A DNA stretch of 64,000 nucleotides from Limibacillus sp. (GTDB lineage Bacteria; Pseudomonadota; Alphaproteobacteria; Kiloniellales; CECT-8803), in contig JARRJC010000017.1 in the NCBI GenBank assembly GCA_037379885.1, forward strand, positions 1 to 64,000, given 5' to 3'. The first letter of the stretch is position 1. The number at the start of each line of letters is the position of its first letter. The notes under the pieces were generated by a model. That model did not search any database. It saw only the letters and a program-made list of their open reading frames with translations, and was not told the DNA's origin. Positions 39,257 to 39,398 of the stretch are shown piece after piece. Both the position numbers and the translations under genes were made by a program.

Positions 39257-39398
39257 GACTCTCTACCCTGACGACTTAGCCCGTACCCTATTGCCCAGCG
39301 GGCTCTTGTTATCCGGCTATCCTTGCCAAGAGGGGAGTCGCCGTCAAGAAAAAACAGCCAAGAAGAGTCAGGAGAGTCAGTAACTTATATTAAGACTC
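39257..39398 (-). promoter_or_regulatory. ccrM upstream region with five GANTC sites and a candidate promoter
   Basis: GANTC occurs at 39257-39261, 39335-39339, 39365-39369, 39374-39378 and 39394-39398, five times in 142 bp; about half a site would be expected by chance. On the minus strand TTGACG (39342-39347) and AAGGAT (39319-39324) stand 17 bases apart like -35 and -10 elements, and the site at 39335 is in their spacer. The site at 39257 lies just before the ccrM ribosome site. The last two overlap or lie inside the 3' end of rnhB. Confidence 0.6.

Follow-up and report, generated by a model that had tools for sequence, protein, structure and literature searches.

CcrM target sites phased to a conserved ccrM promoter across Alphaproteobacteria, with a derived copy in Limibacillus sp.: a probable self-sensing design

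To our knowledge, control of the level and timing of the DNA methyltransferase CcrM in alphaproteobacteria beyond Caulobacter is largely unstudied. In most descriptions, CcrM and GcrA make up a conserved pair. The Caulobacter ccrM gene was judged “most probably” methylation-regulated (PMC3973325). Zhou et al. found that the Caulobacter promoters in which GANTC lies between the −35 and −10 share a single temporal class (PMC4287350). Brilli et al., working from GANTC counts in 500-bp promoters, judged that methylation control was not derivable (PMC2877005). The Agrobacterium gcrA promoter contains 6 GANTC in 250 bp, and methylation reduces its activity, even in E. coli (PMC11514494). In restriction-modification systems, a recognition site can lie inside an element of the met promoter, where its methylation lowers activity (PMC6237814).

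A 64,000-nucleotide stretch of Limibacillus sp. DNA (the window) was analysed around its ccrM gene. The features of the locus, all on the minus strand, were:

38131..39246, minus: ccrM, GANTC adenine methyltransferase with an MTase domain (DPPY) and a C-terminal RAMA domain
39257..39261, minus: extra GANTC by the ccrM ribosome site, just upstream of AGGGGA; unconserved
39319..39324, minus: −10 AAGGAT; invariant A (−11) and T (−7) kept, overlapping GANTC lost (TGGCA instead)
39335..39339, minus: spacer GANTC (GACTC), +8 from the −35; the conserved site (GANTC at spacer +7 to +10 in 144/172)
39342..39347, minus: −35 TTGACG; TTGAC with a 17-bp-spaced −10 found in 172/231 ccrM loci
39365..39369, minus: GANTC site 2 (GACTC); by comparison with relatives it usually abuts the −35, here 17 bp farther upstream
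39374..39378, minus: GANTC site 1 (GACTC), overlapping the rnhB stop codon; a TAA[C/G]-type element stands before it
39377..40003, minus: rnhB (ribonuclease HII; NCBIfam and Pfam), directly upstream of ccrM
39394..39398, minus: GANTC site 0, within the 3′ end of rnhB

The CcrM protein of the window matched the NCBIfam CcrM model with 617 bits, under the strict equivalog cut-off of 830, as well as Pfam N6_N4_Mtase and RAMA, and its best solved structure was 6pbd (CcrM, E 4e-159); specificity for GANTC is predicted from this homology. A genome search found ccrM in single copy, and the order with rnhB upstream of ccrM was kept in most loci examined.

Five GANTC within 142 bp (39257–39398) around the ccrM promoter had been reported in a preliminary description, and a scan of the window recovered all of them, at 39257, 39335, 39365, 39374 and 39394. 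Four of the five fall inside the 130-bp ccrM-rnhB intergenic region (39247–39376). On the minus strand, read 5′ to 3′, the upstream part is GAGTC(39398–39394) ... TAAGTTACT-GACTC(39378–39374)-TCCT-GACTC(39369–39365)-[17 bp], followed by the core TTGACG(39347–39342)-GC-GACTC(39339–39335)-CCCTCTTGGC-AAGGAT(39324–39319). The −35 to −10 spacer is thus 17 bp long and contains the GACTC at 39339–39335.

The window as a whole avoids GANTC (131 seen vs ~297 in dinucleotide shuffles). With 131 sites per 64 kb the rate is 0.29 per 142 bp, and the earlier expectation of ~0.5 was if anything too high. Five GANTC in 142 bp was the window maximum and its densest cluster; at least five in 142 bp arose in 2.5% of trials with random placement of 131 sites and in 6 of 10,000 under a local first-order Markov model. 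Density was 1.8/kb in coding vs 4.0/kb in intergenic DNA (window, rough gene calls), and the proposed count per intergenic region, made over the window with rough gene calls, put the ccrM-rnhB gap at the top of 37 regions with 4 sites. Judged on the number of sites alone, the cluster has only moderate significance. The GANTC enrichment of intergenic DNA and a scan statistic of just ~0.025 would suit chance clustering in A+T-richer intergenic sequence, but class-wide positional conservation and the near absence of one-mismatch intermediates (below) make that explanation extremely improbable. The cluster was accepted as non-random because its sites are conserved by position across loci; chance was rejected on this ground for the spacer site, and may account for the unconserved site at 39257. 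That site does abut the ccrM ribosome site, as had been described, but it does not belong to the conserved array, being missing from the nearest relative (L082) and from most other loci.

To place these sites in a wider comparison, 231 distinct ccrM upstream regions (from same-order relatives, 79 loci of 61 class families, and 80 named species) were searched, independently of GANTC, for TTGAC-N19-A-N3-T, i.e. −35 and −10 (xAnnnT) elements with a 17-bp spacer between them. This pattern was present in 172 of the 231 regions vs 0.8% of shuffled sequences. In 142 of these 172 promoters, a GANTC lay exactly at +19, counted from the initial T of TTGAC, and its final C opened the −10 hexamer (CAGGAT, CATCTT or CATGAT in typical cases); a second GANTC lay in the spacer of 144, mostly at +8 (range +7 to +10). 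When promoters were chosen by TTGAC and the +19 GANTC alone, A(+24) and T(+28) were invariant (142/142). The +19 site was intact in 142 promoters, had a single mismatch in 1 and two or more mismatches in 29 (n=172), and the spacer site was intact in 144, with one mismatch in 4 and more in 24 (n=172); the corresponding numbers at a control position were 18, 42 and 112. Had only the usual conservation of a promoter been at work, many intermediates with one mismatch would be expected; we conclude from these comparisons that there is selection on intact GANTC sites, all or none.

TTGACG and AAGGAT of the window, proposed beforehand as a ccrM promoter with a GANTC in its spacer, lie in the same frame as this class promoter, and their spacer GANTC is the conserved one. 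Comparison of the sequences thus supports this element as the ccrM promoter, and the strong conservation of CcrM sites is as methylation-dependent control of ccrM predicts. A search of the open-licence literature, a scope outside which most subscription papers fall, gave no description of a phased ccrM promoter. Phasing GANTC to the −35/−10 frame makes the signal visible, unlike counts per promoter (PMC2877005).

The array has further members and is not universal. A third GANTC abuts the −35 in 27 of 47 members of the window's order, and an upstream GANTC 12–20 bp before TTGAC was seen in 38 of these 47 and in 44 of the 79 class-sample loci. Counted by family, the class sample had the −10 site in 35/61 and the spacer or −10 site in 45/61; 22 of the 79 loci had no such sites when scored for −35/GANTC. 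The nearest relative and some other members of the order have site 0 at a matching position (L082, L097, L100, L085, L088). The N of the spacer site was unrestricted (G 59, C 43, A 39, T 22) and that of the −10 site was C or A in 148 of 150, and conservation of the −10 site may partly reflect sequence recognition beyond methylation. The −10-overlapping site usually lies within a 7-bp palindrome TGA[C/A]TCA (+18 to +24; e.g. L085, L089 and L195). Across orders, most loci also had a TAA[C/G]NNN[T]T element 12–25 bp before the array begins with its first site, with the window copy at about 39379–39387 (minus); it could be a putative half-site for some regulator.

The −10-overlapping GANTC, the most conserved site of the class, is gone from the window genome, and 17 extra bp (39348–39364) separate its upstream GANTC pair from the −35. 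In the nearest relative L082 (84% CcrM identity), site 2 is still against the −35 and the −10 site is lost, as it is also in L083 and L090. Judged against its relatives, the window copy is a partly degenerated, derived example of the conserved design.

Caulobacter crescentus ccrM resembles the window locus in having several GANTC before ccrM. It differs in being CtrA-activated and in lacking GANTC phased to a TTGAC-17-xAnnnT core. The idea that the window shares the Caulobacter arrangement did not hold, since Caulobacterales loci lack the −35/GANTC/−10 architecture and have sites near the ATG instead (in the Caulobacter loci examined, a short way from the ATG and following TTAACC-type motifs), and the window has the phased TTGAC/GANTC/−10 core. 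What stood of the proposed conserved design was the strong conservation of CcrM sites in the ccrM promoter (142/172 and 144/172); its sharing with Caulobacter fell. A CtrA-driven promoter of the Caulobacter type, with GANTC incidental or confined to the leader, is very improbable for the window. CtrA drives ccrM in Caulobacter, with TTAA-N6-TTAA listed as a CtrA motif of podJ (PMC4287350), and the window has TTAA-N6-TTAC on the minus strand at about 39380–39393. This candidate CtrA box was rejected: it is not conserved in L082, the conserved elements being the −35/−10 pair and the GANTC sites, and PF06627 (SciP family) had no match in the window genome.

The sites could in principle have another role, for instance to load CcrM, to form a protected patch of hypomethylation or to act in an antisense promoter affecting rnhB. 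MucR-bound, locally hypomethylated GANTC patches are known in Caulobacter (PMC7987155), and site 0 sits within rnhB. Such roles are very improbable, as the sites keep base-exact phase with the ccrM −35/−10 (+19 exactly) and are kept in loci that have no rnhB in the upstream stretch examined (e.g. L085, L087–L089, L094, L096).

Whether the design extends to other genes was judged from pattern matches. In 60 relatives, the pattern of −35, spacer GANTC and −10 GANTC gave roughly 45 of ~78 matches at ccrM (counted by eye), and its reversed control gave 14 matches; several of the non-ccrM matches recur near-identically and resemble conserved coding sequence. In the window genome, TTGACNNNGANTC occurred 7 times vs 11 times for the reversed control, and a genome-wide regulon with this −35/GANTC design was rejected. 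The full architecture thus appears nearly private to ccrM. For TTGAC-N14-GANTCANNNT in 40 relatives, some 20 non-ccrM matches were found vs 6 in the control (counted by eye). A few of these seem to be conserved promoters with GANTC over the −10, near-identical in paired genomes (e.g. G018:C12:60966 with G023:C14:434717, and G011:C25:234031 with G028:C149:34742).

Type II restriction-modification promoters (e.g. CfrBI; PMC6237814) are like this promoter in that the methyltransferase gene has its enzyme's own recognition site within a promoter element: the window has a spacer GANTC, and the −10 GANTC is present in 142 of 172 promoters and lost in the window. They differ in that CcrM is an orphan cell-cycle methyltransferase, with several sites rather than one and with class-wide conservation; there methylation lowers activity, and here such an effect is predicted. 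We suggest that ccrM is transcribed from a sigma70-type promoter with CcrM targets in its core (over the −10, in the spacer, and at one or two places immediately before the −35) and that the enzyme probably senses its own activity through these target sites. N6-methylation of the array would alter the use of the promoter by RNA polymerase. Most likely, full methylation would lower promoter activity, and hemi- or unmethylated DNA, just behind the replication fork or when CcrM is scarce, would raise it; expression of ccrM would then be homeostatic and coupled to replication. The effect on polymerase would be direct, as in restriction-modification systems with a site in a methyltransferase promoter element. 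In the window species, methylation of the sites, its effect on transcription and the negative sign of that effect are all presumed. Sensing there, if kept after loss of the −10 site, would rest on the spacer site and perhaps on the displaced upstream sites.

The main competitor for such direct sensing is a GcrA-dependent promoter, at which GcrA and sigma70 polymerase would bind methylated −35/−10 GANTC and activate ccrM. GcrA is encoded in the window genome, and a GANTC (39335) lies between the −35 and −10. Methylated GANTC enhances GcrA binding, with fully methylated ctrA P1 covered from −35 to −10 (PMC3667746), and in Caulobacter, those promoters that have GANTC between −10 and −35 become active at 40–60 min (PMC4287350). 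The bottom strand of the −10 site, TGAKTCA, is close to the reported YGAKTCK, but the letter following the site is A, not K. The Caulobacter GcrA/CcrM promoters (ctrA P1, mipZ, podJ) likewise have GANTC in or beside a sigma70-type −35/−10; they usually have a single site, whereas the ccrM array has two to four phased sites, is kept without detectable GcrA and, as a full architecture, is all but confined to ccrM instead of being a regulon feature.

The presence of GcrA was compared with that of the array. Among CcrM-bearing genomes of the class sample, 18 had no GcrA over the family cut-off, permissive settings included, and two of these showed weak partial matches; a strongly diverged, missed GcrA or an incomplete assembly could lie behind some of the 18. 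The genomes of the 18 with CcrM and no GcrA over the cut-off (e.g. G193, G251, G171 and G144) are nearly complete. A site near the −10 (+18 to +20) was present in 14 of the 18 CcrM-bearing genomes without GcrA vs 30 of the 61 with it (p 0.06), so the architecture is not absent where GcrA is absent and, if anything, is kept more often. These counts show that the array is independent of detectable GcrA, which weakens GcrA as the sole reader of methylation. We therefore regard a promoter that depends on GcrA as possible but unlikely; in GcrA-bearing genomes, GcrA possibly contributes, perhaps as an activator.

A direct effect on polymerase is favoured because the array persists without detectable GcrA and because restriction-modification systems and the Agrobacterium gcrA promoter provide precedents. 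That promoter, too, is a GANTC-rich promoter of the CcrM/GcrA module; it belongs to another gene, and its sites were not placed relative to −35/−10 (PMC11514494). On balance, and with reasonable though not high confidence, we read the conserved ccrM promoter as a direct switch of the restriction-modification type, repressed by full methylation. Its base-exact, class-wide design offers a directly testable answer on the level and timing of CcrM. If this reading is true, orphan cell-cycle methyltransferases are joined to self-sensing restriction-modification promoters, and the Caulobacter ccrM promoter is an exception, not the model. We tentatively extend it to the ancestral state, a doubtful step as yet: control of ccrM in alphaproteobacteria may originally have been a transcription-factor-free sigma70 switch, perhaps from a restriction-modification ancestor of CcrM, on which CtrA and GcrA were later overlays, the switch being replaced outright in Caulobacterales.

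The gcrA gene of the window genome has a GANTC cluster of its own, four sites in ~60 bp roughly 100–150 bp upstream of its start (L111:1346–1406, on G000:C4 upstream of gcrA at about 66367). This cluster resembles the GANTC-rich, methylation-repressed gcrA promoter of Agrobacterium.
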